Source of the DNA: a bacterium
GTDB lineage: Bacteria > UBP6 > JAFGXH01
Direction: 5' to 3'
Length of the DNA stretch: 53,355 bases
Assembly: GCA_027064085.1 (NCBI GenBank)
Contig: JAMOQH010000061.1
Span: 1 to 53,355, forward strand
Shown here in pieces: positions 20,401 through 51,152 of this stretch. Each line of letters starts with the position of its first letter. The first letter of the stretch is position 1. The notes beneath the pieces were generated by a model. That model was not told the origin of the DNA, ran no database searches, and saw nothing but the letters and a program-made list of their open reading frames with translations. A program made the position numbers and the translations under genes.

Positions 20401-23400
20401 AACTATAGTTTAAATGTTATAATTAATCCTAACCCATGTATTGGGGTAACTTGTGATGGTTCAAATGAATCAGGTGTTTGTACACCTTCTGATGATCAAA
20501 ATTCTTATACATGTGAATGTAATGATAATTATTTCAAAGATGAAGATGGTAATTGTCTAAGCCCTTGTGATACTGCTGTATGTCCTGGTGATACTGCAAA
20601 TGGAACAGGTTGTATTGCAACTTCTTTAACTGATTATTCATGTGGTTGTGCAGATAATTACTTTGAAGTTATTGCAACTGACGGAACAAGAACTTGTGAG
20701 TCTGGTTGTGAAGTAACAGCCCTTGATTGTAGTGCAGAAGGTAATAATGTTGAGTGTAGGTCTACAAGTGCAACAGAAGCTGAATGTGGTTGTGAGTTTG
20801 GTTATGTTGATGCAGATGCAACTGATGCTTTTAATTGTGTTGCAATAACTAATGGAGGAGATACTTGTAGTGATGCTGTAAATATTACTGAAGGAACTTA
20901 TTATGGTTCAACTGAAGGATTTAATAATGATTACACTAATGAAGCAACTTGTATTACTGAAAATGAAAAAGGTAATGACGTTGTTTATAGTGTTGAGGTA
21001 CCGGCTGGATATACTTTAAGTGCAACATTAGATGCTGATGTAACTTGGGTAGGACTTTATTTACTAGATGATTGTAGTACTATGAATTGTTTAGTTGCAA
21101 ATAGTACAGCAACACAACAGCCACCTGTAACTATTGAACATACAAATACAACTGATGCTCCCATAACTCTATTTATGGTTCTTGATTCTTATACTGAAAA
21201 TCAAAGTATGAATTATCAATTAGATGTAATTTTAACTCCTCCTCCTCATTGTGGAAATGGAACTATTGATACTGATGAAGGAGAAGACTGTGATCCTAAC
21301 GCAGCAGATCCATTAGATGGAGCAACATGTTCATTAGGTGGTGATTTAGCTTGTGATAGTGAATGTCATTTTGATAGAACTCAATGTTGGGAATGTGATG
21401 GAACAGACGATGCCACACAGTGTACTGAAGCAGGAAAACCTTTGTGTTATACTGATACTCATACTTGTGGAGCTGCACAAGCAGAATGTGGTAATAATAC
21501 AATAGAAAGCCCTGAAGAGTGCGATGGAACAGCAGTATTTGATACAAATTGTCCTGCAGGAATGGCGGGTACAAAAACTTGTGTTGCTGCTGGTGAAACA
21601 AATGAATGTACTATTGATGATTCAGGCTGTGCTGTATGTGAGGATACTTTAACATTAAATTCTGACCCTAAAAACTCAGATAAAGATAACGCATTAGAGT
21701 TAAGTTTAACAAATAATGAAGGCAGTTGGGATAATTTAACAACTAGTGTAGTCGGAGATACTAATACTTGTGATAAAGTAGAAGATTGGTATAAAGTTAC
21801 CGTTCCTGCAAATCATAAAATATCTGTTGATATTTTATTTACTGATGCTGATGGTGATTTGGATTTAAATTTATATGAAGGAATTTCAACAAGTCCTGTT
21901 GGTGGTAGTTATGGTTCAGGGCATTCTGGAAGTACTACTGATAATGAACATGTTGATAATAGTGATGAAGTTAAAGATACTGAAACAATTTATTATATTC
22001 AGGTTAAATATGGTCAGAATATATATAATATGAAAATCAATATTGTTGAAATATGTACTGTTGATACAGATTGTTCTACAACTGGTGATGTATGCTTAAG
22101 TGGTGCATGTTATGATTCTACTCCTTGTAGTGATACAACAATTTGTGATTCTAAATCTAACTCAACTTGTGTAGCTACTTCTAATGTTGATTATACATGT
22201 GAATGTGATGACACTTATACAGAACTAGATGGACAGTGTCTTTTAGAGCAAACTTTAAATGGTGCTAATACATGTGGTGATACTTTACCGGAAATTACAG
22301 AAACAAGTATTTTGACAGGAAGTGTAACTTCTGATGATACAACCTTAGGATGTAGTTCTGGAAGCAACGAAGTATTTTATAAAGTTGTTTTAGCAGAAGA
22401 TAGTTACTTAAAGGTTACTGAAACTGAAGATTATAGTGATTTTAATGCAAATTTAGCATTAAGAACAACTTGTGATGATGTTGACAATGACTTAGAATGT
22501 AATGCTTATGGTGATGAATTTGATGGTTTTTATTCAGCAGGAACCTATTATCTTGTTGTTGAAGGTTATTCTTCTAGTAGTGTAAATTACAGATTAGAAG
22601 TTACAATTAAGTCAAATCCTTGTAATGGGGTTACTTGTGATGCTGTTAATGGTACGGGTACATGTGTTCCGTCTTCAGATGCTTTAAACTATACCTGTGA
22701 ATGTAATGAAGGTTATTTCTTTGATGGAAATAATGCATGTGTAACACCTTGTGCGACAGATACTTGTGATTCAAAGCCAAATTCAACATGTAAGGCTACA
22801 AATGCAACAGATTTTACATGTGAATGTAATGATGGTTATCTTGATGACAATAATGGAACTTGTGTAGATGTTTGTGCAGGTAATAGTTGCGATGCAACAA
22901 CTGAAGTTTGTGTTCCTGTAGATGCATCTAATTACAATTGTGAATGTGCAGATAGTTATATTAGTGATGGTAATGGTGGTTGTGTTGCTGATTTAGGAGT
23001 TGATACTTGTACAGATGCAAACTTGTATACAATAAATGCAAGTGGTACTTTTTATGGAACAACAAATGGTGCTGCTACTGATTATGATTGTGGTTCTGGT
23101 AGTGGACATGATGTGGTTTATGCTATTGACTTAAATGTTGATGACCAACTTGATGTAACATTATCTTCAACTCAAGATACTGTATTATTCTTAATGAAAA
23201 CTTGTTCTAATGAAGCTACAAATTGTTTAGTAGAAGAAGATTCTGGATTTAGTGGTGATGATGAATCATTTAGCTTTACTGCAACAGAAGCAGCTACCTA
23301 TATTATTGGTTTAAGGCGATATGGAGCTACTGCTGATATGGATTATTCATTAACAGTTGACTTAACACCTAGTACTACTGCTGCAAATGTTGGCTGGTGT

Positions 23401-24207
23401 AATACTCAATCTCCTGAGGCAACTGCTGCACAAGGCGAAACCGTTTATGGAAGAGTTTATGTTGCTGGTGTAACAGATGGTGCTGGTCAAGGTGCTAATG
23501 TAGATGCTCAATTATGTTATTATGCTGATGGTGATACTATTGATAATTCTGTTTGTTCATCTGCAACTTACAATGTAGATGATGCTAATAATGATGAATA
23601 TATGGATACTCTTCCTAGTGATTTTGCGGATGGTGTTTATCATTACTATTTTAGATTTAAAGCTTCTGGAGATGCAGATTATTTACCATGTGATCTGAAT
23701 AATACAACTGCTGGAACTAATGGTACTGATTATCAAAATGCTGCAACTTATCAAGGTGATACAGGTACTTTAACAATATCAACTCAGCATACAGCACTTG
23801 TTTCAAATGGTGATTTTGAAGCATGGACAGGTGCTAATCCTAATGAATGGACTACCATAGATTCAGGGCTTTCTTTGACACAGGAACAAACTATTATTCA
23901 TGGTGGAGCTAGTTCAATGGCTGTTACACAAGGGTCAAATAAACAGGATTTTCGTCAGGATATAACTACTGTAGCTGGTACAACTTATAATGTATCTGTT
24001 TGGGTTTATACTCCTACTGGTACAGATATTAAGGCTAGAATTTATGCTGGAGATTATAGAAATTATTCTGATAATACTATTCTTGATTCATGGCAGGAAG
24101 TTACAACTTCATTTACTGCTACGGATACAACAACACAAGTTGGGCTTAGATTTTATAATACCACAGGAACTTTATATATAGATGATTATACAGTAGTTGC
24201 TCAATAA
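17446..24207 (+). CDS. Giant multidomain EGF/PPC surface lipoprotein
   Basis: A 2253-aa lipoprotein (lipobox TSC, Cys23). After two short disulfide-rich modules (30-90) comes a putative Ig-like domain (about 93-186; LPAGLELSPEGNLSG is the He_PIG signature). Many EGF-like modules ending CxCxxGY follow, interleaved with pre-peptidase C-terminal (PPC)-like beta sandwiches at about 530-655, 668-785, 878-990, 1150-1260 and 1400-1520, and more later. A DUF4215-like myxobacterial cysteine-rich block sits near 1270-1400 (CGNGTIDTDEGEDC). The last 130 residues (from VSNGDFEAW to TLYIDDYTVV) look like a CBM4/9-type carbohydrate-binding sandwich. The 878-995 and ~1600-1720 PPC-EGF cassettes are near duplicates. 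It has no enzyme domain, so it is probably an adhesin or surface scaffold. It starts after AAGGAGG and is transcribed alone, closed by the terminator at 24222. Confidence 0.92.
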   Translation: MGSFRYLLLSLLAFLIVFTVTSCDDGGSTTKTVECAVPTECKANQDCVFDSLTAEKGVCTNRVVCEANTDCSDGLLCADDAGSKFCGTREVFGIKSITLDDAKKDEFYPIVKLEVTGSQAEYSFEVLDSTKLPAGLELSPEGNLSGTITADIGEYTFTVKATNGPKDAAHYYNYREATEELTIKVVEGAVTCKVDSCTEAHKTVCSVENDAIVCSCDTGYQDNDDNGTCEETCGMSNLGCTDTQHCDDTAGTATCVCNENWQDDGNGGKCNVCVAGMHINPDDATVCDPDVRTVTCTNIPDAAVATWADAFDNGDFEQTWINGEYIPNVDPDKCLWKCTDSDKVHDVDANVCICGSGLVDDDNGGCKTPCLDNQISNADGTCSCYPGYGGDDCLACATGYNSSRHGLCIFDCSDKANTHVNDNNDNCVCDNGYFDDGSGNCVNPCEGDNAPNCGDTKVCVAVDATQTNCVCDAGLNFVDDGSGNCGCDTANTHRVLATTGDSCECDSANNYVEDLDGTCSLDTACTVDSFTSADPVNDTYATAADITSELVDSAVHYDDLNNQAVDCSSSEDWYKVTVPANKKLSVNINFVNADGNLDLKLYVGGDGYDDDIETSNWSSGDEELVEHVFREETDVYIKVYGPTYSLVRNTYSMDVKLTDIAPVSDLDGGDTCADAVEITQSGTYHGTTAGKTDSMDSPCSSDQDAPEVFYKITPTTDVTLKAKVEKEFYDGIIYLIDSCASTDSIACNDGFSSDKITADLVAGTTYYLVIDGYHSESGEFNLDVELIGPEAPIVCDPACDVDKETCSDVEGTPTCTCDADKGYFYNGFTCVNPCLSASCDSKSNSTCIPSSAMDYTCECDDGYTELNGACLQEQAFPGGDTCGDGLPEITETGIYTGSVNTNDTTVECGYDDGNDVFYKLVLTEESYVNITETEDFDTFNATMALRESCDATTDLACESLDTTGVKGFYPAGTYYLVIEGAVGDVNYSLNVIINPNPCIGVTCDGSNESGVCTPSDDQNSYTCECNDNYFKDEDGNCLSPCDTAVCPGDTANGTGCIATSLTDYSCGCADNYFEVIATDGTRTCESGCEVTALDCSAEGNNVECRSTSATEAECGCEFGYVDADATDAFNCVAITNGGDTCSDAVNITEGTYYGSTEGFNNDYTNEATCITENEKGNDVVYSVEVPAGYTLSATLDADVTWVGLYLLDDCSTMNCLVANSTATQQPPVTIEHTNTTDAPITLFMVLDSYTENQSMNYQLDVILTPPPHCGNGTIDTDEGEDCDPNAADPLDGATCSLGGDLACDSECHFDRTQCWECDGTDDATQCTEAGKPLCYTDTHTCGAAQAECGNNTIESPEECDGTAVFDTNCPAGMAGTKTCVAAGETNECTIDDSGCAVCEDTLTLNSDPKNSDKDNALELSLTNNEGSWDNLTTSVVGDTNTCDKVEDWYKVTVPANHKISVDILFTDADGDLDLNLYEGISTSPVGGSYGSGHSGSTTDNEHVDNSDEVKDTETIYYIQVKYGQNIYNMKINIVEICTVDTDCSTTGDVCLSGACYDSTPCSDTTICDSKSNSTCVATSNVDYTCECDDTYTELDGQCLLEQTLNGANTCGDTLPEITETSILTGSVTSDDTTLGCSSGSNEVFYKVVLAEDSYLKVTETEDYSDFNANLALRTTCDDVDNDLECNAYGDEFDGFYSAGTYYLVVEGYSSSSVNYRLEVTIKSNPCNGVTCDAVNGTGTCVPSSDALNYTCECNEGYFFDGNNACVTPCATDTCDSKPNSTCKATNATDFTCECNDGYLDDNNGTCVDVCAGNSCDATTEVCVPVDASNYNCECADSYISDGNGGCVADLGVDTCTDANLYTINASGTFYGTTNGAATDYDCGSGSGHDVVYAIDLNVDDQLDVTLSSTQDTVLFLMKTCSNEATNCLVEEDSGFSGDDESFSFTATEAATYIIGLRRYGATADMDYSLTVDLTPSTTAANVGWCNTQSPEATAAQGETVYGRVYVAGVTDGAGQGANVDAQLCYYADGDTIDNSVCSSATYNVDDANNDEYMDTLPSDFADGVYHYYFRFKASGDADYLPCDLNNTTAGTNGTDYQNAATYQGDTGTLTISTQHTALVSNGDFEAWTGANPNEWTTIDSGLSLTQEQTIIHGGASSMAVTQGSNKQDFRQDITTVAGTTYNVSVWVYTPTGTDIKARIYAGDYRNYSDNTILDSWQEVTTSFTATDTTTQVGLRFYNTTGTLYIDDYTVVAQ

Positions 24208-25283: not shown

Positions 25284-27242
25284 TTACATTTTGAATGGAA
25301 ATGTTACAGGAATAGGGGCACCTGAGAATTTTGGGAATCTCATAGAACGAACTTTTGAGTGAATACAGTTTTTAGCTGCTCCACCACTTGATCCTACTTT
25401 AATATTTGAAACAGAACCGCTACCATTAATCCTGAATTTAACCATCACTTTACCAGAAATACTAGCATTTTTACCACATTTTTTAACTTTAGGATATATT
25501 CTTTTGATTACACTTAAAACTTGCTTAGGTTTTAGTGTTTTGGGTAAATTAGATACAACTTTTTTCTTGTGTTTTGGTGTATCGTCTCCAAGTATATCAT
25601 CTAAATCATCTTTTTTATGCTTTTTAACAGCAATTTTGGTATTATTTCTTTTAGTATTATTTCTTTTAGTATTATTTCTTTTAGTATGATTTCTTTTATT
25701 TACTTTTTTTACAATTTTTGCTTCATTTGTTTTAGTATTATTGTTAGAGTCATCATTTGTAGTAAGAGTAGATAGGTTAAATTCACTATCTCCATCTGCT
25801 TCAATATTAATAGTTGTTGATATTTTAACTTTACCATCTTTTTCTACTTTGACTGCAATACTTGATGCTGGTTTGATTGTAAGTGTAACTTCTCCATTCG
25901 GATTAGTTTTAAGTTTTTGATCTCCTATTGTTATATCTGCTTCGACAATACCTGTTTTTATTGTTACCTTTTTAGGTTTAGCTTTTAGAGTATATTTTTT
26001 TGTAAAATCATCATTCGTTACAGTAATAACATCTTCTATTATTTTATAATTATCGAGAGCTAATTTAATTTTATGTTTACCAGGTTTTATTTTGATAATT
26101 CCACCACCTGTTTTATCTTTTAAACTTCCATCAAGATATATTAAGGCTCCTGAAGGAGTTGAGGTAACTATTACATTGGATAAATTTTCTTTTTTTACTG
26201 TTGTAGTATCTTTTTTGATAACACCAAAATAAATTCCAATACCTCCTAATGCAATAACAATAATAGCTACAAGTAGAATTATTAAACCTTTGTTGCTTCC
26301 ACCTGAATTATTTGTTGAAGCATTAAATGAAGCATGCTGAACAACTATTTTTTTATTGTTATTTCCTTGAATATCTCTAAAGTCAATAACTTTAGATTTT
26401 GAAGAAGCATCTTCATCTTCATCTTCTTCTAAGTCTTCTTGGTCTATTAATGATTTTAAGTCTAAACCACCACCACCAAAATTTCCTGCAAATGGATCTG
26501 ATTGTGCTGAATTATTATTTGAAAATGACGCGGAATTAGGCTGTTCTTGTTTATCATTGAATAATGATTCTGCATCGTTATCATCTAGTAAGCTATCATT
26601 ACCAAATGCTGCAACATTTGAATCAAGGCTTCCAAAAGGATCAATGGGGGCAGATTTCACAACATGGGAAGCTAGCTGAGGGATATTTTTAATCATGCTC
26701 CAATCAGCCATTCCTGTTTTCCATACATTTGCTGTTTCAGATAGTTTTTCTTGTTTGATTTTAGATTGTAACTTAGATAAAGTTAATGGTCCAACTTGTT
26801 GACCATTAATGTGAACATACCAATCGGCTTCTGATTGGCTTTCAGTCGCTGCTGCTGTAGCATTTAAGCTAGCTGCTTGAGATGATGACATTATTTGAGT
26901 CGCTTCATCATCAAAATCCATCTCATTATTTGGTTCAACAATAGGTTCATTTGATGATTTCTTGTCATTTTCCATTTTCATAGCATCTTCGTATGACATG
27001 ATTTTTGTTGCTTGATCATCAAATTCCATATCTGCACCCATTCCTGAAGGCATATCATCATCCCAATTTGTCTGGGAATCAAAAGGGTCATCATTGGTTG
27101 TAATTTCATCTGCTATTTTTTTAGTGTTATCAATGATAATTTTATTACCACATTTTTTACAGGTAATTTTAAAGCTCTTATTTTGAACTTTTGAATCATC
27201 TACAGAATATTTAGAACCACATTCTTCACATACTATCTTCAT
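25284..27242 (-). CDS. AgmX/GltJ-like trans-envelope protein: zinc ribbon, GYF, TM, PEGA, TonB-like C-terminus
   Basis: A 652-aa membrane-spanning protein. Cytoplasmic part: an MJ0042-type zinc ribbon (C5, C8, C28, C31), two copies of an acidic motif FDD(Q/E)AT(K/Q)IMS (near 55 and 90), then a GYF_2 domain (about 140-195; WYVHINGQQVGPLTLSKL) and a low-complexity Asn/Ser/Asp linker. One transmembrane helix follows at about 317-340. Periplasmic part: a PEGA domain (about 352-405; TSTPSGALIYLDG), a basic Lys/Asn linker with RNNTK repeats, and an AgmX/PglI-type C-terminal domain (about 565-652; SGKVMVKFRINGSGSV). The zinc ribbon-GYF-TM-TonB-like order is that of GltJ/AgmX, which links cytoplasmic MglA/MglB to the envelope gliding machine in Myxococcus. 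Start chosen at the ATG at 27242 after AGGAG. It is co-transcribed with queG. Confidence 0.9.
   Translation of the reverse strand: MKIVCEECGSKYSVDDSKVQNKSFKITCKKCGNKIIIDNTKKIADEITTNDDPFDSQTNWDDDMPSGMGADMEFDDQATKIMSYEDAMKMENDKKSSNEPIVEPNNEMDFDDEATQIMSSSQAASLNATAAATESQSEADWYVHINGQQVGPLTLSKLQSKIKQEKLSETANVWKTGMADWSMIKNIPQLASHVVKSAPIDPFGSLDSNVAAFGNDSLLDDNDAESLFNDKQEQPNSASFSNNNSAQSDPFAGNFGGGGLDLKSLIDQEDLEEDEDEDASSKSKVIDFRDIQGNNNKKIVVQHASFNASTNNSGGSNKGLIILLVAIIVIALGGIGIYFGVIKKDTTTVKKENLSNVIVTSTPSGALIYLDGSLKDKTGGGIIKIKPGKHKIKLALDNYKIIEDVITVTNDDFTKKYTLKAKPKKVTIKTGIVEADITIGDQKLKTNPNGEVTLTIKPASSIAVKVEKDGKVKISTTINIEADGDSEFNLSTLTTNDDSNNNTKTNEAKIVKKVNKRNHTKRNNTKRNNTKRNNTKIAVKKHKKDDLDDILGDDTPKHKKKVVSNLPKTLKPKQVLSVIKRIYPKVKKCGKNASISGKVMVKFRINGSGSVSNIKVGSSGGAAKNCIHSKVRSMRFPKFSGAPIPVTFPFKM
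25639..25698 (-). repeat. 15-bp tandem repeat (4 units) coding RNNTK
   Basis: Four head-to-tail 15-base units (plus-strand unit GTATTATTTCTTTTA), three identical and one with a single change, code for R-N-N-T-K repeats (the last reads R-N-H-T-K). They lie in the periplasmic linker of the AgmX-like protein. The length is a multiple of three, so copy-number change would alter linker length without a frameshift. Confidence 0.85.
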
Positions 27243-27269
27243 TATCGCTCCTAAAACAAACAATAGGCT

Positions 27270-27298
27270 ATAATAAAATATTTTTATTAGATTTTCAA
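27270..27298 (-). promoter_or_regulatory. Promoter of the AgmX-like/queG operon
   Basis: Minus-strand TTGAAA (27293-27298), 17-base spacer, TATTAT (27270-27275), followed by AGGAG and the ATG at 27242. The position supports the shorter start: a longer in-frame reading to 27329 would begin upstream of this promoter. Confidence 0.6.
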
Positions 27299-27398
27299 GT
27301 TTAATTAATCTTTTATGTAAAAATATCACTATAATTTTTTTTAAATTAGGAAAGAATATTGCTTTTATATTGCCATGATAGTGAGTTTGGAGGAAACT

Positions 27399-36064: not shown

Positions 36065-39000
36065 TTATTTTAACACCTTGTTATAAACACAACGGAAAGG
36101 ATAAGCAGAATCATAAGAAGTTATGGCTTGCTCGTTACTTCCACCATGCCATGCTGTGTTAACATTATTCCATCTAACTAAATGTAAACCATAGTGATTG
36201 CTATACCAATACACCGCTTCATTTATCCAATTCCAAGTATTACTACCATTAGGTAAACCTTGTTGTACCAAATTGACAAAGGAATTACTGTCCATTAAGT
36301 GTCCACCTGCAAATAAACATTCGTTAACAGCAGCCGCATAGTCTAATGCCACTCTATCATAAGAATCTGCATACATAGTTGTGGTTTCAAAACATTCACT
36401 ATCAGGAACACCATTACATTTGTTACCATAAAGTATATCACTAGACTTTGCAGGCCAAATACATCTGTAATAATTCGTATTAGTTAAATTTTGCCTTGAA
36501 ATTCCTCCATTGCTTAATCTAACAGTGATATGTTGAGTATCGTTATAAGTTGCAATTAATGTCCACAAATAATCAGTTGAAGCTCCTGTTGCAATATTAG
36601 AATTAACTAAACTATTATTAGCTCTAATTCTGTATAATTCATCTGCACTTGGTAACCTAGCACCTAAAGATTCACAAGTTGATTTTGCATCTTCATAATT
36701 TGCTGATCTAGGCACAGCATCCCAAGCATTTCCCCAAGCATCTATTTTTTCAGAACCATTTGCATTACCATTTGAGCTTCCATTAGCTGCAACTACACAA
36801 TCAAATGTTGTTCCGTTCCATGTTAGAACATCAGTATCGTTAGTACAAGTTGGTAGTGTTGGTCTTTTTTGTTCCCAAACACATCTATAATTTCTATTAT
36901 TTGTTGGTCCACTTCTTTCAAAAGTTGTACTCATAATATGATACCATCTTTCAGTACCTGTTCCACTCCATCTAAGTATATTAACTCCATATCCACCACT
37001 ATACCAATAAAGCATATCAGTAGTCCAGAGCCAATTATTACTGCCATTAGCCCAACCTTGATGTATATTTTCTATGAAATCTCTTGAATTAGCCATTCGT
37101 CCACCCAAATCTCTACAAATTTGAACAGCTGAAGCATAGTTAGTGGTAGCTCTATCTTCAGAATCTGCAACTAATTTAGTACTTCTATTATTATTTACAA
37201 AACAACCATCAGCGCCATTACAATTATTTGTACTAGGTGTAGAAAATGCTTTTTGATCTTCTAAACCTATACATCTAAAGCGTTCTCTACTTGTATGATA
37301 TGCAAGAGAGCCCATACTAGAAACTTGATATCTCCAAGAAGGAAGACCTATTCCTGACCACCTAATAATACTAGAGCCATTACCTCCATTATACCAATAT
37401 ATTGCATCTCCTACCCAATTCCAACTATTAGTACCATTAACTAAACCTTGATGTATATTTTCTGACCATTGCACCAATGTTGGAATAGATGCACCATAAA
37501 AATTACATTCATTAGTTGCAGCAACATAATCTAGGCTTGGTCTATCTAAGTTATCAATATTATAATATCTATCATATTTAGTGCATTCTTCTCCTGGATT
37601 CCCATAACATCTTTGACTATCAAATCCACTATTATCATCATTAGGCCATATACATCTAAAATTAAGCATTTGATTATTAGAATCATTTCCATTAGATACA
37701 TTGCCATCGCTTAGTCTGATGGTTACTCTATTGTTACCTGAATAAGATGCAATTAAAGTCCATAAATAATTAGTATTGTATGTTTGTGCAATATCTCCAC
37801 TTCCTGAACTTGCATTGTTTCGATATAATTCAGTTGCAGTAGGCAATCTTCCTCCTAAAGATTCACAAATAGCTTTTGCTTCACTCCAAGTTTTTTTACC
37901 TCTTTCCATTCCATCCCAATCGGAACCCCAACTATCGGTTACTGGATATCCATTAAAAACATTACAAAAACTAAATTGCCAACAATCTTCATCTGCACAA
38001 TCTACTTTGCCGTCTTCATCATTATCTTCACCATCTGCACATTTTGCAGAGCTATCTTCAGTATTAAATGTTCCACAAAAAGTAAAGCCTTGACAGTCTT
38101 CATCATCACAATCTACTTTACCATCTTCATCATCATCAAGATTATCTTGACAAAGTGCTGCTGTATTTTCTACAGGTGTTTCTACTGCACAGAAAGTAAA
38201 GCCTTGACAATCCTCGTCATCACAGTCAACTTTACTGTCATTATCATTGTCAAGATTATCTTGGCAAAGTGCTGCTGTATCTTCTACAGGTGTTTCTACT
38301 ACACAAAAAGTAAAGCCTTGACAATCCTCATCATCACAATCAACTTTACCATCTTCATCATTATCAAGATTATCTTGACAAAGTGCTGCTGTATTTTCTA
38401 CAGGTGTTTCTACTACACAAAAAGTAAAGCCTTGACAATCCTCATCATCACAATCAACTTTACCATCATTATCATTATCAACATTATCTTGACACTTAAC
38501 AGCAGTATTCTCTAACAATGGTTGACAGAAAGTAAAGCCTTGACAATCAGTATCATCACAATCTGTAGCTAAATCATTATCATTATCAATATTATCTTGA
38601 CAAAGAGCTGCAGTGTTTTCTACTTTAGGAGTTGTTGCGCAAAATGTAAAGCCTTGACAATCTTCATCTTCGCAATCTATCTTACCATCATTATCATTAT
38701 CATTTTGATCATTACAAGCAGTGGATGTATTTTCTTCGCCTGCCACACAAAAACTAAATACTTGACAGTCTTCATCATCACAATCAGTTTTACCATCATT
38801 ATCATTATCCTGATGATCATTACAAAGTGCAGCTGTATTTTCTACTTTACTATCGCAAAATGTAAAGCCTTGACAATCTTCATCGTCACAATCTACTTTA
38901 CCATCGTCATCATTATCCCTATTATCTTGACAAACAATAGCTGTATTTTCTTCTGTTGTTGCACAAAAAGTAAAACCTTGACAATCAGTATCTTCACAAT

Positions 39001-39391
39001 CAGTTTTACCATCTTCATCCGTATCTAAACCATCTTGACATAATACAGCAGTGTTTTCTACTTTAGATGCACAAAATACGAAGCCTTGGCAATCTTCATC
39101 ATCACAATCAGTTTTACCATCATCATCATTATCATTCTGATCATTACAATCAACAGCAGTATTTTCAGTTTTGGTAACAGTTTGACAAAAAACATAGCCT
39201 TTACAGCCTTCGTCTTCACAATCTATTTTACCATCTTCATCATTGTCTTTGCCATCTTGGCATTGTTCCGCAAGAACCTCTTCTGTTTTAAGAACTTCTT
39301 TACCAGTAACCGTGCTAGGTGTATCACTACATGATAATGTTATTAACATTAAAGCTAATACACTAATAATTGTTAAAAATTTTACTTTCAT
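36065..39391 (-). CDS. Acidic cysteine-repeat lipoprotein with Lcl (DUF1566) modules
   Basis: A 1108-aa lipoprotein (lipobox LSC, Cys21). Residues 44 to about 477 are twelve tandem units of 34-38 residues built around DNDxDGKxDCDDxDC and GFTFC, separated by ENTA linkers. They resemble calcium-binding MopE/thrombospondin-3-like acidic motifs. The C-terminal ~630 residues hold five Lcl/DUF1566-like modules marked by Trp-rich segments such as YLWTLIA...LS and (F/Y)RC(I/V)(W/Y), with the pattern AxxxCExLGxRLPxxxELY. These modules have a C-type-lectin/FGE-like look and are found in surface and adhesion proteins. A stiff, calcium-dependent stalk carrying several binding heads is the natural reading. 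It has a GGAGGG ribosome site and its own promoter, and is transcribed alone. Confidence 0.92.
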   Translation of the reverse strand: MKVKFLTIISVLALMLITLSCSDTPSTVTGKEVLKTEEVLAEQCQDGKDNDEDGKIDCEDEGCKGYVFCQTVTKTENTAVDCNDQNDNDDDGKTDCDDEDCQGFVFCASKVENTAVLCQDGLDTDEDGKTDCEDTDCQGFTFCATTEENTAIVCQDNRDNDDDGKVDCDDEDCQGFTFCDSKVENTAALCNDHQDNDNDGKTDCDDEDCQVFSFCVAGEENTSTACNDQNDNDNDGKIDCEDEDCQGFTFCATTPKVENTAALCQDNIDNDNDLATDCDDTDCQGFTFCQPLLENTAVKCQDNVDNDNDGKVDCDDEDCQGFTFCVVETPVENTAALCQDNLDNDEDGKVDCDDEDCQGFTFCVVETPVEDTAALCQDNLDNDNDSKVDCDDEDCQGFTFCAVETPVENTAALCQDNLDDDEDGKVDCDDEDCQGFTFCGTFNTEDSSAKCADGEDNDEDGKVDCADEDCWQFSFCNVFNGYPVTDSWGSDWDGMERGKKTWSEAKAICESLGGRLPTATELYRNNASSGSGDIAQTYNTNYLWTLIASYSGNNRVTIRLSDGNVSNGNDSNNQMLNFRCIWPNDDNSGFDSQRCYGNPGEECTKYDRYYNIDNLDRPSLDYVAATNECNFYGASIPTLVQWSENIHQGLVNGTNSWNWVGDAIYWYNGGNGSSIIRWSGIGLPSWRYQVSSMGSLAYHTSRERFRCIGLEDQKAFSTPSTNNCNGADGCFVNNNRSTKLVADSEDRATTNYASAVQICRDLGGRMANSRDFIENIHQGWANGSNNWLWTTDMLYWYSGGYGVNILRWSGTGTERWYHIMSTTFERSGPTNNRNYRCVWEQKRPTLPTCTNDTDVLTWNGTTFDCVVAANGSSNGNANGSEKIDAWGNAWDAVPRSANYEDAKSTCESLGARLPSADELYRIRANNSLVNSNIATGASTDYLWTLIATYNDTQHITVRLSNGGISRQNLTNTNYYRCIWPAKSSDILYGNKCNGVPDSECFETTTMYADSYDRVALDYAAAVNECLFAGGHLMDSNSFVNLVQQGLPNGSNTWNWINEAVYWYSNHYGLHLVRWNNVNTAWHGGSNEQAITSYDSAYPFRCVYNKVLK
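37963..39262 (-). repeat. Twelve-unit tandem coding repeat, period about 102-114 bp
   Basis: DNA repeat encoding the acidic C-D-N-D-G units of the lipoprotein. Units 8-10 (roughly 38160-38500) share a 114-base period with only scattered changes, while the first and last units are more diverged. This is the pattern expected from recent slippage or unequal crossing-over in the middle of the array. It is coding, not CRISPR. Confidence 0.9.
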
Positions 39392-42648: not shown

Positions 42649-44985
42649 TTAATAATTATTTTTTCTTCTAAATATAAGTAAAAAAATGAAAAGCATCAAA
42701 GATAAATAATAATTGTAGTTGTTAATACTAGAATATGAACAAGAACTATTGTTTTTAGACTTTGGTTTTGGTTTTGGCTCTGTATTAATTTTTTTTATAC
42801 ATTTATTACCAATACCAAATTCATATCCATCATTACAATAACATTCGCCATCAGTATTATTACATTTTGCATTTTCAGAACACATAGCATTTTCACATAA
42901 AGAACCTTGATCATACTTTAAGCATTTATCATTTTCGTTATAAAATCCTCTATTGCAATGACATAAAACATCATTAGTATCACAATAAGCATTTTCTTGA
43001 CATTTAATACTAGTACAAGCATCATCTATTCTGCAAATCATTCCCGTTTCACCTTCATTATGATAACCAATATTACAATTACATTTTACTTCAGTAATAC
43101 TTACAACTTCACAGATTCCATGATTAGAACATTTTATATCTTTGCAAGGATTATATTCAGGGTCTAGAATACATGATCCATTTTGCTTTTTATAACCTAA
43201 ATCACATTCACAAGAAATATTTATACTAGTTTTGTTGTCAGGATTAAAACTATCATTAAAAACACATTTTGAATGCTCTGGACAAGAATATTGAGAACAC
43301 GGTTCATAATTATTGCAATCAGCATCATTGGTATCAATAAATCCATCACAATCATCATCTTGATTGTTATTACATAGTTCGCCATCATGATTAGGGATAC
43401 AATTAGATAGGTTTTGTGCCTTTAATAAAGCTTTGTAAACATCTACTTTTCCATAACCAAAATCAACAGAATAACCATTGGTATTATAATTATTTCCTAT
43501 TTTATTTGCGGTTGTTTTAATTATATCTATTACCTCTAAATAAGTTAAATTAGGAGCTTCTGATAAAATTAACCCTACCATTCCTGCAACCAATGGTGTT
43601 GCAGATGATGTTCCACCAAAATACTTTGTATAATTACCTGCGGAATCAACTTCTCTAACATAATAATCCTTATTAGTTCCATTATTATTATATCCAAGCC
43701 TTCCCGTTCTATCCGTTGTCCATATATTTCCTTCTGGTGTGTGAAAGGACTCATAAGTACCAGCACTTGAAGGAGCAACAACTGTTAAATAATTTCCAAA
43801 ATTACTGTATTCAGCTCTTTTGTCCTGGTAATCACTTGCTCCTACAGCTATAACATTTATTAAAGAAGATGTTTCATAAGAAAACAACTGTCTATTATCA
43901 TTTCCAACAGCAAATAAAACAATACATCCTTTTTTATTACGGCCATTTGCTGTTACATAATTTATAGTGTTTTTAAGCTCTTCACTCACGGGAACAGCCT
44001 CACTTGCTCCCCAAGAATTGCTAATTACATCAGCTCCCATTAACATGGCCCATCTAAATGCTTGAGGGGTTGAACTAGAATAAACTGCTCCACTTTCTGA
44101 TAATAATTTTGCTGAAATTAAAGAACAATTAGGACAAATTCCTATCATTCCCTTTCCATTATCTCCAATTGCTGATGCTACACCAGCACAAGAAGTACCA
44201 TGTTCTGCACCTAGATTTTCAGCTTCAGTACTGAAATTTTTATGAGCAATAACATTTAAATCTTCATGTTCGCTATCTATTCCATCATCGATTATTGCAA
44301 TTTTTATTGATTTAGAACCTTTATTGATATCCCAAGCAAGATTTGAATTTGCTCCACCAGTACCTGTTCTATGATGCCATTGATTAGAAAAGTAAGTGTC
44401 ATTTGGAGTATAATATTTTTTATAAATTGTTATAAAGTCAGGATGAGAAAATTCTACTTCAGGTAAATTCTGTAATTTATTTGCTAAAGTTAGTATGTTT
44501 TTAATATCTTGATTGCTTTTAACAACTAAGAAAATTGAATAATCTATATTTTTTGTATTTTTTGTATATAAACTATTCTCCTTTAGAATTTCATTAATTC
44601 TTGAAACAGAAGTATCATTTTTAAATTTAATAACTATTTGTTTGTCAATAAATCTAGGCCAAGAATTATTGTTTTTAAAATGATATCCTTTTATTTGATA
44701 TGAAACAAATGAAGTTTTTTTAAATATATTTTCAATGTTATCTATTTTCGAAGAAAATTTAAATAAAAATAAATTACTACCAATATTTTTAAGCTCTTCT
44801 ATTTTAGGAATATCTTTAATCGCCTTCAATTTATTTTTGATTTCTTTAACTGAAAGCTTATACTTAGTTTTTACTCCAATAAATTGATTTGATTCTATTA
44901 GAGGTATTTTGTTACCAAAATTATAATAAAAATTATCTGTTGAGTATATATTAAATGCTATAAATAAAATTACGATATATTTCAT
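42649..44985 (-). CDS. Secreted subtilisin-like protease with EGF modules and C-terminal membrane anchor
   Basis: A 778-aa exported S8 protease with a Sec signal (about 1-16) and a propeptide region (about 20-195). The catalytic domain spans about 200-520 with the full triad: Asp233 (IAIIDDGIDSEH), His262 (EHGTSCAGVAS), Ser460 (GGTSSATPLVAGM) and oxyanion Asn362 (FAVGNDN). A MopE-like motif DDDCDGFIDTNDADC follows, then about five EGF-like modules (550-735). The end is a Pro/Lys linker, a Cys (SSCSY), a hydrophobic helix LSLMLFIFLLIF and RRKNNY, a layout like MYXO-CTERM sorting tails. The start is the second ATG (44985), because the first ATG overlaps the GGAGGT ribosome site. It is divergent from the pseudokinase operon. 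Confidence 0.93.
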   Translation of the reverse strand: MKYIVILFIAFNIYSTDNFYYNFGNKIPLIESNQFIGVKTKYKLSVKEIKNKLKAIKDIPKIEELKNIGSNLFLFKFSSKIDNIENIFKKTSFVSYQIKGYHFKNNNSWPRFIDKQIVIKFKNDTSVSRINEILKENSLYTKNTKNIDYSIFLVVKSNQDIKNILTLANKLQNLPEVEFSHPDFITIYKKYYTPNDTYFSNQWHHRTGTGGANSNLAWDINKGSKSIKIAIIDDGIDSEHEDLNVIAHKNFSTEAENLGAEHGTSCAGVASAIGDNGKGMIGICPNCSLISAKLLSESGAVYSSSTPQAFRWAMLMGADVISNSWGASEAVPVSEELKNTINYVTANGRNKKGCIVLFAVGNDNRQLFSYETSSLINVIAVGASDYQDKRAEYSNFGNYLTVVAPSSAGTYESFHTPEGNIWTTDRTGRLGYNNNGTNKDYYVREVDSAGNYTKYFGGTSSATPLVAGMVGLILSEAPNLTYLEVIDIIKTTANKIGNNYNTNGYSVDFGYGKVDVYKALLKAQNLSNCIPNHDGELCNNNQDDDCDGFIDTNDADCNNYEPCSQYSCPEHSKCVFNDSFNPDNKTSINISCECDLGYKKQNGSCILDPEYNPCKDIKCSNHGICEVVSITEVKCNCNIGYHNEGETGMICRIDDACTSIKCQENAYCDTNDVLCHCNRGFYNENDKCLKYDQGSLCENAMCSENAKCNNTDGECYCNDGYEFGIGNKCIKKINTEPKPKPKSKNNSSCSYSSINNYNYYLSLMLFIFLLIFRRKNNY

Positions 44986-45074
44986 GTAGACCTCCATATA
45001 ATGAGATACTCTACACCATTATTTAAAAAAAAACAAATATGTAATAACTTATTTTCATTTAAAACAGTAGTTTC

Positions 45075-45103
45075 TTGCAATTTGTCTTTATTTTTTCTAT
45101 AAT
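45075..45103 (+). promoter_or_regulatory. Promoter of the pseudokinase operon
   Basis: TTGCAA (45075-45080), exact 17-base spacer, perfect TATAAT (45098-45103), then AAGGAG before the ATG at 45144. One of the best-matching promoters in the window. Confidence 0.7.
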
Positions 45104-45143: not shown

Positions 45144-47174
45144 ATGACAGAAAATAATGAATTAAATAATATTAATGAGCTAATTGATGAAAGTATTTCT
45201 GAAATTGTTCAAAAAGAAAAAAAAGATTATTTAAAATTAGAAGCAAATGAATATTTTCTTGATATTAAACTAGAGCAAAAATTAGGAAGGAATTCATTTT
45301 CATCTTCCTATGTTATTAAACATGAAAATGAAAATAGAATTTTAAAAATATTAAAATCATCTATATATAAATCTTATGAGGATTTCTATAAACCATTAGT
45401 TGCTTATCAAAATTTAGATACAAGAAGTAAATATCAAGTTTATGATTTTGGGAAACATGAAGATTATTATTATATTATATCTACATTTGTTGAAGGAAGA
45501 AGCTTAAGGCAAGTTCTTGAAAATAAAAAAGAACATGGAGAGTTATTTAGACTAAAACATGCATATGGAATAATTGTTCAAGTATTGCAAGAACTCTCTC
45601 ATATTGATGGAGAATTAGCACATACCTTAATTACTCCAAGTACCGTAATTATATCAAGAGATGGTAGCGTTTCAGTTGTTGAATTTGGAATATATCAGAA
45701 TTTATCACCAGCAAAAAGGTTTAAAGTATCATCTGAAATAGGATTTGCAGATTTTATTGCTCCTGAATTAACAACATTAAATCAAGAAATGGATTTAATA
45801 GTATCAGATATTTATTCAATTGGAGTATTATTATACTGGCTTTTAACAGCAGAAACTCCACAACAATATTTTGAAATACCGGCAACAAAATCAGAAGACA
45901 TGAGTAAATCATTGCGTTTATTACTTGAGAACTGTATTCATCCAAATCCAACAAATAGACTAAAAGACATTAGATCATTGCAAATAACATTAACAGCCTT
46001 GATTTCAGAAAGGCCAATAAGTAAAATTCAAAGTTTTTCTGATAAATTACAAAAAACGCCCCCTAATGCTCCAAATACACCGCCTAAAGCACCTCCAGTA
46101 CCAAAACAATTTACTCCACCTGTTTTTAAGCCTGCTTCAATAAAAGATAGTAAATTAAATCTTCCCGATAAAAAAGTTGTAAATGAATTTGAGAAATTTA
46201 AATCTAAAAAAGGTGATGTAACATTAGGTGAATTAGATGAAGTAGAAAGATGGTTTTTTGTAAAAGATGGCGTTGATTATGGCCCCGTAAGTGCCAAAAA
46301 GATTAGAGAATTAGTAGAATTAAAAGAATTAAAAACTGATACAATTATAAAAACATTAACACACCCAGTTAAAAGAGGTAAAGTTTCAGAGCTAGAGTTA
46401 TTTAAAAATTTTATTAAAGATTTTGAATTAAAACAATCCGAAGAAGATATGATAAAAAAGATGGCTTCTTCAAAAAGAAAAAATTTTATAATTATAGGCG
46501 TTATTGCTGTTATTATTGTTCTTATTGGAGCATTTATATTTATTAATTCTAATAAACCAAAACCTAAAAAATATGCACACCTTGAAGAAAAGAATGAAGG
46601 TTCTTCTGTTGAAGTTATCGTTCAAGAAGAAAATGGTTTATCAAGTGATGAAGATTCTAATAAAAAAATAAATAGCAAAAAAGGAAAACGCCATAAAAAA
46701 AGAAGAAAAAGAAAAAAATATTACAGAAAACGGAAAGTTAAGAATAAAAAGACAGGTAAAATTGAAACCGTTATGGTTGAAGTTGATAGAGAAGCAGAAA
46801 TGAAAAAAGCTTTTAATGAAAACAACAAAGAAAATAATGATGTAGCATCAATTTCATTTAAAGGTAATAAAAAAGGAAAAGATTTATCAGATGAAGAAAT
46901 TAAATCTAAAATATCTACAATAAAAAAAGATGTTATATCTTGTTTTGAACAAGAATATTCAAGAACTGAGTATTTACCATCAAGATTAAAAATTTCATAT
47001 AATATCAGACAAAATGGTAAAATATATAGAGTTACAATTCAGCATCCAAAGTATAAACATAAAAGAGGAAAGTTAAATTATTGTGTTGTAAAATCTTTTA
47101 GAAAAATTAAATTTACCCCATTTAGTGGTGGAACCAAAGTTGGAACAATGCCACTAGAATTTGAAGTAGAATAA
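45144..47174 (+). CDS. Pseudokinase-GYF-TM-AgmX/TonB-like membrane protein
   Basis: A 676-aa protein. Residues about 36-290 follow a bacterial Ser/Thr kinase fold: a loop KLGRNSFSSSY, the Lys of VAIK (about K68), APE kept as IAPEL and the helix-F Asp in SDIYSIGVLLYWLL. The catalytic loop reads AHTLITPSTV instead of HRDxKPxN, and DFG is EFG, so both catalytic Asp and the Asn are lost. A Pro-rich linker (305-330) leads to a GYF_2 domain (about 368-415; WFFVKDGVDYGPVSAKKI), one TM helix (about 448-467), a very basic stretch (511-540) and an AgmX/PglI-type C-terminal domain (about 585-676). It shares the GYF-TM-AgmX tail with the protein at 25284-27242. It heads an operon with a lipoprotein and rsmE. 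Confidence 0.9.
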   Translation: MTENNELNNINELIDESISEIVQKEKKDYLKLEANEYFLDIKLEQKLGRNSFSSSYVIKHENENRILKILKSSIYKSYEDFYKPLVAYQNLDTRSKYQVYDFGKHEDYYYIISTFVEGRSLRQVLENKKEHGELFRLKHAYGIIVQVLQELSHIDGELAHTLITPSTVIISRDGSVSVVEFGIYQNLSPAKRFKVSSEIGFADFIAPELTTLNQEMDLIVSDIYSIGVLLYWLLTAETPQQYFEIPATKSEDMSKSLRLLLENCIHPNPTNRLKDIRSLQITLTALISERPISKIQSFSDKLQKTPPNAPNTPPKAPPVPKQFTPPVFKPASIKDSKLNLPDKKVVNEFEKFKSKKGDVTLGELDEVERWFFVKDGVDYGPVSAKKIRELVELKELKTDTIIKTLTHPVKRGKVSELELFKNFIKDFELKQSEEDMIKKMASSKRKNFIIIGVIAVIIVLIGAFIFINSNKPKPKKYAHLEEKNEGSSVEVIVQEENGLSSDEDSNKKINSKKGKRHKKRRKRKKYYRKRKVKNKKTGKIETVMVEVDREAEMKKAFNENNKENNDVASISFKGNKKGKDLSDEEIKSKISTIKKDVISCFEQEYSRTEYLPSRLKISYNIRQNGKIYRVTIQHPKYKHKRGKLNYCVVKSFRKIKFTPFSGGTKVGTMPLEFEVE

Positions 47175-48934: not shown

Positions 48935-49666
48935 ATGAATATTATATTATTTAAAAAATCAGCTTATATAAACAAGTCAGAAATTATAATAAAAGATAAA
49001 AAAAAATATAAACACATTATAAAGGTACTCAAAGCTAATATTGGCGATAGTATAAAAATTGGGCTTATAAATGATTTACTTGGAATTGGTATAATAAAAA
49101 ATATAGATAAAACTGAAAAAACAATCACCTTAAAAGTGGAGTTAAATAAAAAAGCTCCTAAAAAATTAAATACAACACTAATTTTAGCAATGGTAAGACC
49201 CAAAAGTTTGAAAAAAGCACTGCATGTTGCAATTTCTATGGGAATTAAAGAAATTATTATTATAAAAACATGGAAAGTAGATAAATCCTATTGGTCTTCT
49301 CCACTTCTTCTTGAAGAATCACTAAATGAAATTTCAATTGAAGCACTTGAGCAAGCAAAAGATACTATAATGCCTAAAATTATAATAAAAAAATTATTTA
49401 AACCATTTATTGAAGATGAACTATCTCCATTAATGAACTTAAAAAGAGGTGTAATTGCTCATCCTATAGCTCAAAATAGTTTTTTTGATATTAACAACAA
49501 TGCCGAACCATTTAATATTGATTATCTAGCTATAGGTCCTGAAGGTGGATTTATAGATTATGAAATTAATAAATTCAAAAATATTGGTTTTGAGGTATTT
49601 AAGTTAAATGAAAGGATTTTAAGAGTTGAATACGCTATTCCTGTTATATTGTCTAGATTGATTTAG
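48935..49666 (+). CDS. rsmE: 16S rRNA m3U1498 methyltransferase
   Basis: RsmE, a SPOUT-class methyltransferase that methylates N3 of U1498 in 16S rRNA. At 243 aa it is full length. An N-terminal PUA-like domain (about 15-70) is followed by the knotted SPOUT domain with AMVRPKSLKKALHVAISMGI, SLNEISIEALEQA, IGPEGGFIDYEINKF and the final NERILRVEYAIPVILSRL (usual 'LGxRILRxETA'). It is the third gene of the pseudokinase operon, 14 bases after the lipoprotein. No ribosome site stands out. Co-transcription with envelope genes is probably incidental. Confidence 0.95.
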   Translation: MNIILFKKSAYINKSEIIIKDKKKYKHIIKVLKANIGDSIKIGLINDLLGIGIIKNIDKTEKTITLKVELNKKAPKKLNTTLILAMVRPKSLKKALHVAISMGIKEIIIIKTWKVDKSYWSSPLLLEESLNEISIEALEQAKDTIMPKIIIKKLFKPFIEDELSPLMNLKRGVIAHPIAQNSFFDINNNAEPFNIDYLAIGPEGGFIDYEINKFKNIGFEVFKLNERILRVEYAIPVILSRLI

Positions 49667-49697: not shown

Positions 49698-49726
49698 TTG
49701 CAGAAAATTATAATTAATGATAAAAT
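49698..49726 (+). promoter_or_regulatory. Promoter of the cysteine-repeat lipoprotein gene
   Basis: TTGCAG (49698-49703), 17-base spacer, TAAAAT (49721-49726), then GAGGAG (49742-49747) and ATG at 49755. It rules out a longer in-frame start at 49698. Confidence 0.6.
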
Positions 49727-49754
49727 AACTTGTTTTTTTTTGAGGAGTAAATTT

Positions 49755-51152
49755 ATGAAATATTTTATTTTGATTTTATCTGTTTTTTTATCAGTATTAA
49801 CTATTTCTTGTAGTGACAGTTCAAATAATAGCCAAAATAATGATAATTTAGGTAAAGAGGGCTATAGTTGTAAAAAAGATAAGACTTGTGATGATAAACT
49901 AATTTGTAATCGTAATAATATATGTGAACAAGATGATTCAGATGGTAAAATTGGAACAATTAATAATCCTTGTAGGACTGATAAAACTTGTGATGCTGGA
50001 CTAATTTGTAATGTAAATAATATTTGTGAAAAGGAGCAGACAGAACAACATGCAGGAGAAGAAGGATATTCTTGTAAGGAAAATGCAGTTTGTAATACAG
50101 GTTTAGTTTGTAATTCACAAAATATTTGTGAAAAGCAACAAGTAAATGAGCATGCTGGAGAGGAAGGGTATTCATGTAAGGAAAATGCCGTTTGTAATAC
50201 GGGTTTAGTTTGTAATTTACAAAATATTTGTGAAAAGCAACAGGTGGATGAACATGCAGGAGAAGAAGGATATTCATGTAAAGAAGATAAAGTTTGTAAT
50301 TATGATTTATTTTGTAATACAGATAATTTATGTGAAAAAAACGATGTGGCTGATTTTGGTAAAGAGGGAAAACCTTGTATTAAAGTTGGAGATAAGAAAT
50401 GTTTAACTGATGATTTATTTTGTAATGAATATAATCTTTGCGAAAAGATGCAAGGAACTAGGGGTGAAGAGGGTAGTCTTTGTAATATAGATGGAAGTTG
50501 CAATGCTGGATTAATGTGTGCATTGGAAGATATTTGTATGAATGAAATAGATTTCAATACAGGAGACGAAGGTCAGAATTGCAGAGTAACAGATGATAGT
50601 ATGGAATTTTGTTATGATGGGTTAACTTGTGATACTTTTGGTGAATGTCAGTTAGATTGTAGTCCTGGAAATGACAGTTTATGTACAGATGATGGTGCAT
50701 TTAATTTTTCTCCTTATGCTGGAGTTTATAAATTAATTCGTTTTGATGAAACTACTAATTGTGGAACTAATAGCTATAGCCCTAAGGATAATGTTGATTA
50801 TGAATATTTTCAGTTAACATTTGAAAATTATTATGGCTTTAAGTATTTAGGATTTCATGATTGTCAAGATTTAGGAACCTGTAGTTCTAGTGAAAAGTCT
50901 TACTATAAAATTGTAGATATTGATGGAGCTGAATTAATGGAATTTGCTAGTGAAAATGCAGATGGGTCATGTACTTATACTGCAGTAGATACACGCATAA
51001 GAATGGTTGGAAATAAAGTAAGAATAAGATATGTATTTAATGAAGCTATTGTTACTGATTCTGGTGATGAGTGCAGTAGCTTAAATGTTCATAATCATTA
51101 TGGTGAGATGACTTGTGGTAAAATTAGAATTATAGATGGAATTAAACAATAG
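49755..51152 (+). CDS. Cysteine-rich repeat lipoprotein (Dickkopf-like modules)
   Basis: A 465-aa lipoprotein (lipobox ISC, Cys19). Residues about 33-310 form eight tandem units of about 34 residues of the type GEEGYSCKENAVC...LVCNxxNICEK, each with four cysteines spaced like Dickkopf/'putative disulfide' modules of secreted deltaproteobacterial proteins. The first cysteine-rich segments of the 2253-aa protein (17446) are of the same type. The last ~150 residues (from FNFSPYAGVYKLI) form a separate, unrecognised disulfide-containing domain ending in CGKIRIIDGIKQ. It was probably a surface protein with a repeat stalk. It has a GAGGAG ribosome site and is transcribed alone. Confidence 0.88.
   Translation: MKYFILILSVFLSVLTISCSDSSNNSQNNDNLGKEGYSCKKDKTCDDKLICNRNNICEQDDSDGKIGTINNPCRTDKTCDAGLICNVNNICEKEQTEQHAGEEGYSCKENAVCNTGLVCNSQNICEKQQVNEHAGEEGYSCKENAVCNTGLVCNLQNICEKQQVDEHAGEEGYSCKEDKVCNYDLFCNTDNLCEKNDVADFGKEGKPCIKVGDKKCLTDDLFCNEYNLCEKMQGTRGEEGSLCNIDGSCNAGLMCALEDICMNEIDFNTGDEGQNCRVTDDSMEFCYDGLTCDTFGECQLDCSPGNDSLCTDDGAFNFSPYAGVYKLIRFDETTNCGTNSYSPKDNVDYEYFQLTFENYYGFKYLGFHDCQDLGTCSSSEKSYYKIVDIDGAELMEFASENADGSCTYTAVDTRIRMVGNKVRIRYVFNEAIVTDSGDECSSLNVHNHYGEMTCGKIRIIDGIKQ
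50049..50354 (+). repeat. 102-bp tandem coding repeat
   Basis: Units starting at 50049, 50151 and 50253 (each with CATGCNGGAGA) are exactly 102 bases apart. The first two are nearly identical at the DNA level, the third is conserved only in its first ~30 bases. Recent duplication of one 34-residue module. Confidence 0.85.

Follow-up and report, generated by a model that had tools for sequence, protein, structure and literature searches.

Gene, neighbourhood and orthologs

The 53,355-nt stretch of DNA analysed here (the window) carries on its plus strand an open reading frame whose limits are exactly 45144-47174 and which contains no internal stop codons (Table 1). A preliminary description of this sequence had read the product as a kinase-like domain followed by a proline linker, a GYF domain, a transmembrane (TM) helix and an AgmX/PglI tail, and this order proved right, with the GYF match lying below threshold. 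The gene is preceded by a strong Shine-Dalgarno sequence and a weak promoter-like element, and in a consensus scan the regional count of sites of this TTGCAA-17-TATAAT type did not exceed that in shuffled sequence. It probably forms one operon with the downstream lipoprotein gene, whose product matched no family, is not encoded next to the pseudokinase orthologs described below and, on comparison, is unrelated to the window lipoprotein encoded at 14131. Elsewhere the window (10481-12313, 17446-24207, 36065-39391, 42649-44997, 49698-51152) encodes numerous secreted repeat proteins, Cys-rich and EGF-like or Asp-rich, among them a papain-like protease and a subtilase, both with EGF repeats, and a 2253-aa repeat protein.

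The two other genomes of the family, G001 (apparently record JAFGXH010000270.1) and G002 (apparently DYRY01000033.1), encode orthologs that are 44% identical to the window protein; these share its domain order and carry in addition an N-terminal zinc ribbon, absent from the window protein. The related genomes were binned from metagenomes. The label of the second record, Anaeromyxobacter dehalogenans, looks wrong in view of the record's AT-rich gene content and of its kinship to the window genome. The RsmE gene, a housekeeping synteny marker, lies downstream of the pseudokinase gene in all three genomes and is the sole neighbour in common; RsmE apart, no conserved partner gene was found beside the pseudokinase gene across the three genomes. 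Nor does an ExbB/TolQ- or AglR-type motor gene adjoin it, and eight MotA/ExbB genes are located elsewhere in the window genome. In both other genomes, genes for MurJ/MviN-like membrane proteins, as read from sequence (L019:6105-7664, L020:12330-13880), lie downstream of the pseudokinase gene at a distance of a few genes, an arrangement that recalls the mycobacterial MviN pseudokinase; in the window, no such gene is nearby.

Table 1. Coordinates of the pseudokinase gene, its signals and encoded segments, and of neighbouring and related genes in the window
Feature	Position	Strand	Basis or remark
GltJ/AgmX-like paralog P0004: zinc ribbon - GYF - TM - PEGA - TonB-like tail	25284..27329	-	Profile matches
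Promoter-like TTGCAA-17-TATAAT, 41 nt upstream of pseudokinase gene	45075..45103	+	Consensus scan, 10/12 matches, weak
Shine-Dalgarno aaaggagataaATG (AGGAG), ahead of start codon	45135..45143	+	Sequence; strong
Pseudokinase - Pro linker - GYF-like - TM - basic linker - AgmX/PglI tail protein	45144..47174	+	676 aa
Pseudokinase domain, residues ~36-290	45249..46013	+	PF00069, AlphaFold2, PDB match, motif table
K68, beta-3 (VAIK) Lys; Tyr in both orthologs	45345..45347	+	Alignments
Degenerate catalytic loop H160-T161-L162-I163-T164-P165-S166-T167 in place of HRDLKPEN	45621..45644	+	Alignments
E180-F181-G182 in place of DFG (Asp to Glu)	45681..45689	+	Alignments
P+1/APE segment GFADFIAPELT	45741..45773	+	Conservation count, 9/11 positions invariant in three orthologs
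Proline-rich linker, residues 291-345	46014..46178	+	Sequence
GYF-like domain with pre-GYF motif GDVTLGELDEVER, residues 353-429	46200..46430	+	Sub-threshold GYF_2 match, conservation
Single transmembrane helix, residues 449-467	46488..46544	+	Sequence
Lys/Arg-rich linker after TM helix, residues 471-575, presumed periplasmic	46554..46868	+	Sequence composition
AgmX/PglI (myxo_SS_tail, TonB-like) C-terminal domain	46884..47162	+	NF033768, conserved Cys600, Cys647
Predicted lipoprotein, 576 aa	47190..48920	+	15 nt downstream of pseudokinase gene
RsmE-type 16S rRNA methyltransferase	48935..49666	+	Housekeeping, synteny marker

The kinase-like domain and its catalytic positions

In a Pfam scan, residues 43-274 matched PF00069 with an E value of 1.6e-18, and an AlphaFold2 model of residues 28-296, computed from an alignment of 23 sequences, reached a pLDDT of 89.5 and a pTM of 0.88. 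The PDB structure nearest to this model is S. aureus Stk1 (9ymt; Z 25.6, 241 aligned residues, 2.5 A), and further matches include M. tuberculosis PknA, PknB and PknI (Z from 25.6 down to about 23); the predicted structure is that of a Hanks-type Ser/Thr kinase fold (PF00069). The catalytic motifs were placed twice independently, in an HMM alignment of 45 kinase-like domains and in a MAFFT alignment with 22 other sequences, and the two agree. They concur with the preliminary description in the loss of the HRD Asp (now Leu), the catalytic Lys and Asn (both Thr) and the DFG Asp, and no catalytic Asp takes up the HRD or DFG position. Both alignments also find the alpha-C Glu missing, and the G-loop reads LGRNSFSSS (residues 47-55).

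The persistence of the VAIK Lys, the APE motif (A206-P207-E208) and the helix-F Asp (D222) holds for the window protein itself, but because both orthologs have Tyr at the K68 position, the retained Lys does not reflect functional conservation. Of the active-kinase residue set the VAIK Lys alone is left, and the orthologs are without it. Since these motif losses occur in a predicted kinase fold that matches solved Ser/Thr kinases, the domain has the fold of a kinase but not the residues needed for phosphotransfer. Its motifs (ILKI / HTLITPST / EFG) differ from those of the ActPs1-3, GLW, CP1, DYD and DLHK families as quoted in PMC12599244.

The membrane-spanning half and related architectures

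GYF_2 (PF14237) is the top Pfam match of the segment that follows the proline linker, covering residues 370-402 and 33 of 50 profile positions at a sub-threshold E value (0.012 for the whole protein, 0.0004 for the segment alone); across the three orthologs E ranges from 0.0004 to 0.015 and the score from 15.5 to 20.5 bits, below the gathering cut-off of 25.8. An HMM of the GYF domain, built on local paralogs, does not pick up the segment, and a profile comparison with the GYF domain of the window paralog gave no signal. Its GYF identity is probable, not secure, and we term it GYF-like only. It is the best-conserved segment of the protein, with a core identity of 75-77% among the orthologs. 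Statements on fold are confined to the kinase domain, as a whole-protein AlphaFold2 model computed from the three orthologs only had a pLDDT of 40.

The C-terminal domain matches NF033768 (1.9e-9, 37.5 bits against a cut-off of 40) and exceeds the cut-off in the genome scan (42.9 bits); the two orthologs score 40.8 and 39.1 bits. The GltJ (NF033761) and GltG (NF033760) equivalog models match the tail only, at about 17-23 bits against cut-offs of 450 and 650. Cys600 and Cys647 are invariant in all three orthologs and, together with the one TM helix, are consistent with an N-in topology that would place the tail in the periplasm.

This architecture recalls GltJ (AgmX) and GltG (PglI) of the Myxococcus Agl-Glt gliding system, with which the window protein shares a cytoplasmic recognition module, one TM helix, a linker and a TonB-like tail. 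GltG and GltJ are described as TolA/TonB-like and modular, each with a single TM helix and TonB-C motifs (PMC5349195), and with a periplasmic arm coupled to a motor (PMC5349195; PMC3169522). The GYF-like domain is common to the window protein and GltJ-type proteins; the difference lies in the cytoplasmic module, which is a pseudokinase in the window protein, an FHA domain in GltG and a zinc ribbon plus GYF in GltJ-type proteins. The window itself encodes a GltJ/AgmX-like paralog (P0004), which matches NF033761 at 2.6e-31 (best stretch, the first 204 positions), GYF_2 at 1.6e-15 and PEGA at 1.2e-11; it is like the window protein in its GYF, TM and AgmX/TonB-like tail, but has a zinc ribbon in place of the pseudokinase and a PEGA domain after its TM helix. 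Tail relatives in the window genome include FHA-like-TM-tail proteins, such as L030 (its FHA domain read from sequence), and zinc-ribbon-GYF-TM-tail proteins. A further gene, L087:7182-8252 (G000:C157), encodes a secreted VanX-like D-Ala-D-Ala dipeptidase (Peptidase_M15, 6e-26) whose C-terminal segment shares 42% identity with the window protein's tail. A fixed partner for the tail is not supported, because companion tail proteins differ between the three genomes: the VanX-like dipeptidase carries the tail in G000, and a PEGA-tail protein is the companion in G001 and G002. A search of the window genome for MglA candidates among small GTPases of the Arf family returned weak, mixed matches only.

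The preliminary description regarded a membrane-linked pseudokinase as unusual, a view at odds with the EssB/YukC, MviN, ActPs2, ActPs3 and GLW families already described in bacteria (PMC12599244) and with at least two more pseudokinases in the window genome, of which one is likewise conserved across the family. EssB/YukC of type VII secretion resembles the window protein in joining a cytoplasmic pseudokinase to a single TM helix as the scaffold of an envelope machine (PMC12599244), but EssB/YukC is a Firmicutes protein with neither a GYF domain nor an AgmX tail. Mycobacterial MviN (MurJ, ActPs3 family) likewise has a membrane-linked dead kinase domain, works on the cell envelope and has a phospho-dependent partner; unlike the window protein, it carries this domain on a multi-pass flippase and shows motif losses of its own (VALT, Lsidhpsr, Y--).

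The nearest kinase domains in the tree belong to zinc-ribbon - kinase (HGDLKPEN) - TM - FGE/SUMF proteins of several phyla (L069, L070, L075, L077, L084; dead version L062), some of which already have EFG or lack the HRD Asp. These share the order zinc ribbon - kinase-like - TM - C-terminal domain but end in an FGE-sulfatase-type domain and have no GYF domain or AgmX tail. In the tree of 45 kinase domains, the three orthologs group with the pseudokinase-TM-FGE protein L062 (support 91), and this group sits, on long branches and with a weak support of 72, inside the zinc-ribbon-kinase-TM-FGE set, which spans several families. The second conserved pseudokinase of the window genome, L016/L090 (L090:2661-5465, G000:C177; orthologs G001:C87 and G002:C253, 51% identical), has a zinc ribbon, a pseudokinase (GYLIPEN, no DFG), a TM helix, a coiled coil and an FGE-sulfatase-type domain; its domain order is that of the HGDLKPEN kinases of other phyla, forming an intact-to-dead motif series. 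Another kinase-like protein without the HRD Asp (HGNINPLN, EFS; L013/L091:5269-6756, G000:C153) has 496 aa and a C-terminal TM helix as a tail anchor.

The full-length architecture occurs in 3 of 28 genomes of the phylum and in 3 of about 580 genomes overall, all related. Outside these three it was found neither in 386 sampled genomes, the phylum included, nor in 195 genomes from the phylum to which G055, with its authentic GltJ, belongs; in both searches the best few candidates per genome were scored, so that absence is not proof. Kinase-only matches are common, and single-protein scans of genome contig and viral contig collections returned no relatives. The simplest account of its origin would be a fusion of the zinc-ribbon/kinase/TM/FGE lineage with a GltJ-like GYF-TM-tail lineage.

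Conservation, rival readings and a proposed docking model

Comparison of the two closer orthologs with each other gives dN/dS values of 0.098 for the kinase domain, 0.067 for its C-lobe, 0.03 for the GYF region and 0.125 for the tail; ratios of about 0.1 or lower indicate that the dead kinase domain is maintained. The HRD Asp and the catalytic Lys and Asn are absent from all three orthologs, and the ATP-site residues are swapped, with Tyr at the beta-3 Lys and DF[S/A] at DFG in the orthologs against a kept Lys and a Glu in the window protein. Counts of invariant positions give a coarse map, drawn from three orthologs of which two are close to each other: in the ATP site they are 0/10 for beta-3, 2/9 for the G-loop and 4/15 for the DFG region, and elsewhere 9/11 for P+1/APE, 13/18 for alpha-F, 8/12 for the start of alpha-E and 41/56 for the pre-GYF and GYF segment. 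With an ATP site that drifts, and with conservation concentrated in the GYF segment and on the surfaces formed by alpha-D/E, P+1/APE and alpha-F, these comparisons favour a docking or binding scaffold over a nucleotide switch. As judged from the orthologs, which also lack the catalytic-loop residues, and the kinase dN/dS of 0.10, the domain is a conserved pseudokinase rather than a decayed copy.

We consider it reasonably likely that the window protein belongs to the GltG/GltJ type of trans-envelope proteins, with a non-phosphorylating pseudokinase, used for docking, as its receptor in the cytoplasm. Such a bitopic inner-membrane protein would expose the dead kinase domain and the GYF-like domain as docking modules in the cytoplasm, span the membrane with one helix, and extend its basic linker and TonB-like tail, the latter probably held by a Cys600-Cys647 disulphide, into the periplasm to touch envelope partners. 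The pseudokinase may bind a partner by the substrate face of its C-lobe (alpha-D/E, P+1/APE, alpha-F), with no phosphoryl transfer and probably no conserved nucleotide, and this binding, or occupancy of the proline linker/GYF pair, would set the moment of engagement or recruitment for the periplasmic tail. The topology, the disulphide, the face used for binding, the partners and the switching are all inferred here, and action on an envelope machine is plausible by analogy from the tail.

A phospho-relay of the MviN/FhaA kind, possible in our estimation though unlikely, would have active Hanks kinases phosphorylate the pseudokinase or the juxtamembrane segment, for example at Thr360 within GDVTLGELDE, and a GltG-like protein of the FHA-TM-tail kind bind the phosphothreonine, pairing two TonB-like arms. 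The window genome has many kinases with intact motifs as well as FHA-like-TM-AgmX-tail proteins (L030), all three orthologs keep Thr360 and the residues around it unchanged, and a precedent exists in MviN, whose pseudokinase domain, once phosphorylated, is reported to be bound by FhaA (PMC11898655); Thr360 may, however, merely belong to the GYF fold, the FHA identity of L030 comes from reading its sequence, and there is no synteny between the genes.

The preliminary description was right in reading a pseudokinase, but a scaffold is better supported than the allosteric, non-phosphorylating switch that it proposed, given a drifting ATP site and a kept C-lobe surface and GYF segment. The nucleotide-sensing form of this switch, in which ATP would be bound without hydrolysis and a conformation change passed to the tail, seems to us distinctly improbable: the window protein retains K68 and the overall fold, and some pseudokinases with altered motifs are predicted to bind ATP (PMC12599244), yet conservation is lowest at the G-loop, beta-3, alpha-C Glu and DFG positions, the orthologs lack the beta-3 Lys and the window protein lacks the DFG Asp. 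Repurposed catalysis (AMPylation, glutamylation or similar), for which pseudokinases such as SelO and SidJ provide examples (PMC12599244), is very improbable, as the pocket residues vary between the window protein and its orthologs and those of a conserved new active site would not. Equally hard to credit is the reading as a recent copy, now in decay, of an active receptor kinase: the long branch in the tree and the missing catalytic residues would fit, but the ORF is intact, the two orthologs of the same architecture are just as dead with a kinase dN/dS of about 0.1 between them, and no active ortholog with the full architecture was found among the genomes searched.

The combination of a pseudokinase with an AgmX/TonB-like tail is unusual, each half being of a known kind, and our literature search found no paper linking AgmX or GYF to a bacterial pseudokinase. 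To our knowledge, bacterial pseudokinases are numerous, and a function is known for very few. The described members of this tail family, GltG and GltJ, serve an envelope motor, and the dead kinase thereby acquires a testable output. A bolder extension of the docking model, which we offer as doubtful, makes the pseudokinase the cytoplasmic clutch of a TonB/GltJ-type force-transducing arm, in which partner binding to the dead kinase, with no phosphoryl transfer involved, would gate the coupling of a proton-driven (ExbB/TolQ/AglR-type) motor to the outer membrane or peptidoglycan. In AgmX-tail proteins the cytoplasmic module is exchanged among FHA-like, zinc ribbon-GYF and pseudokinase forms, an exchange suggestive of a plug-in logic that links signals inside the cell to the envelope, and the joining of a pseudokinase to a TonB-like arm may be a new way to do so.
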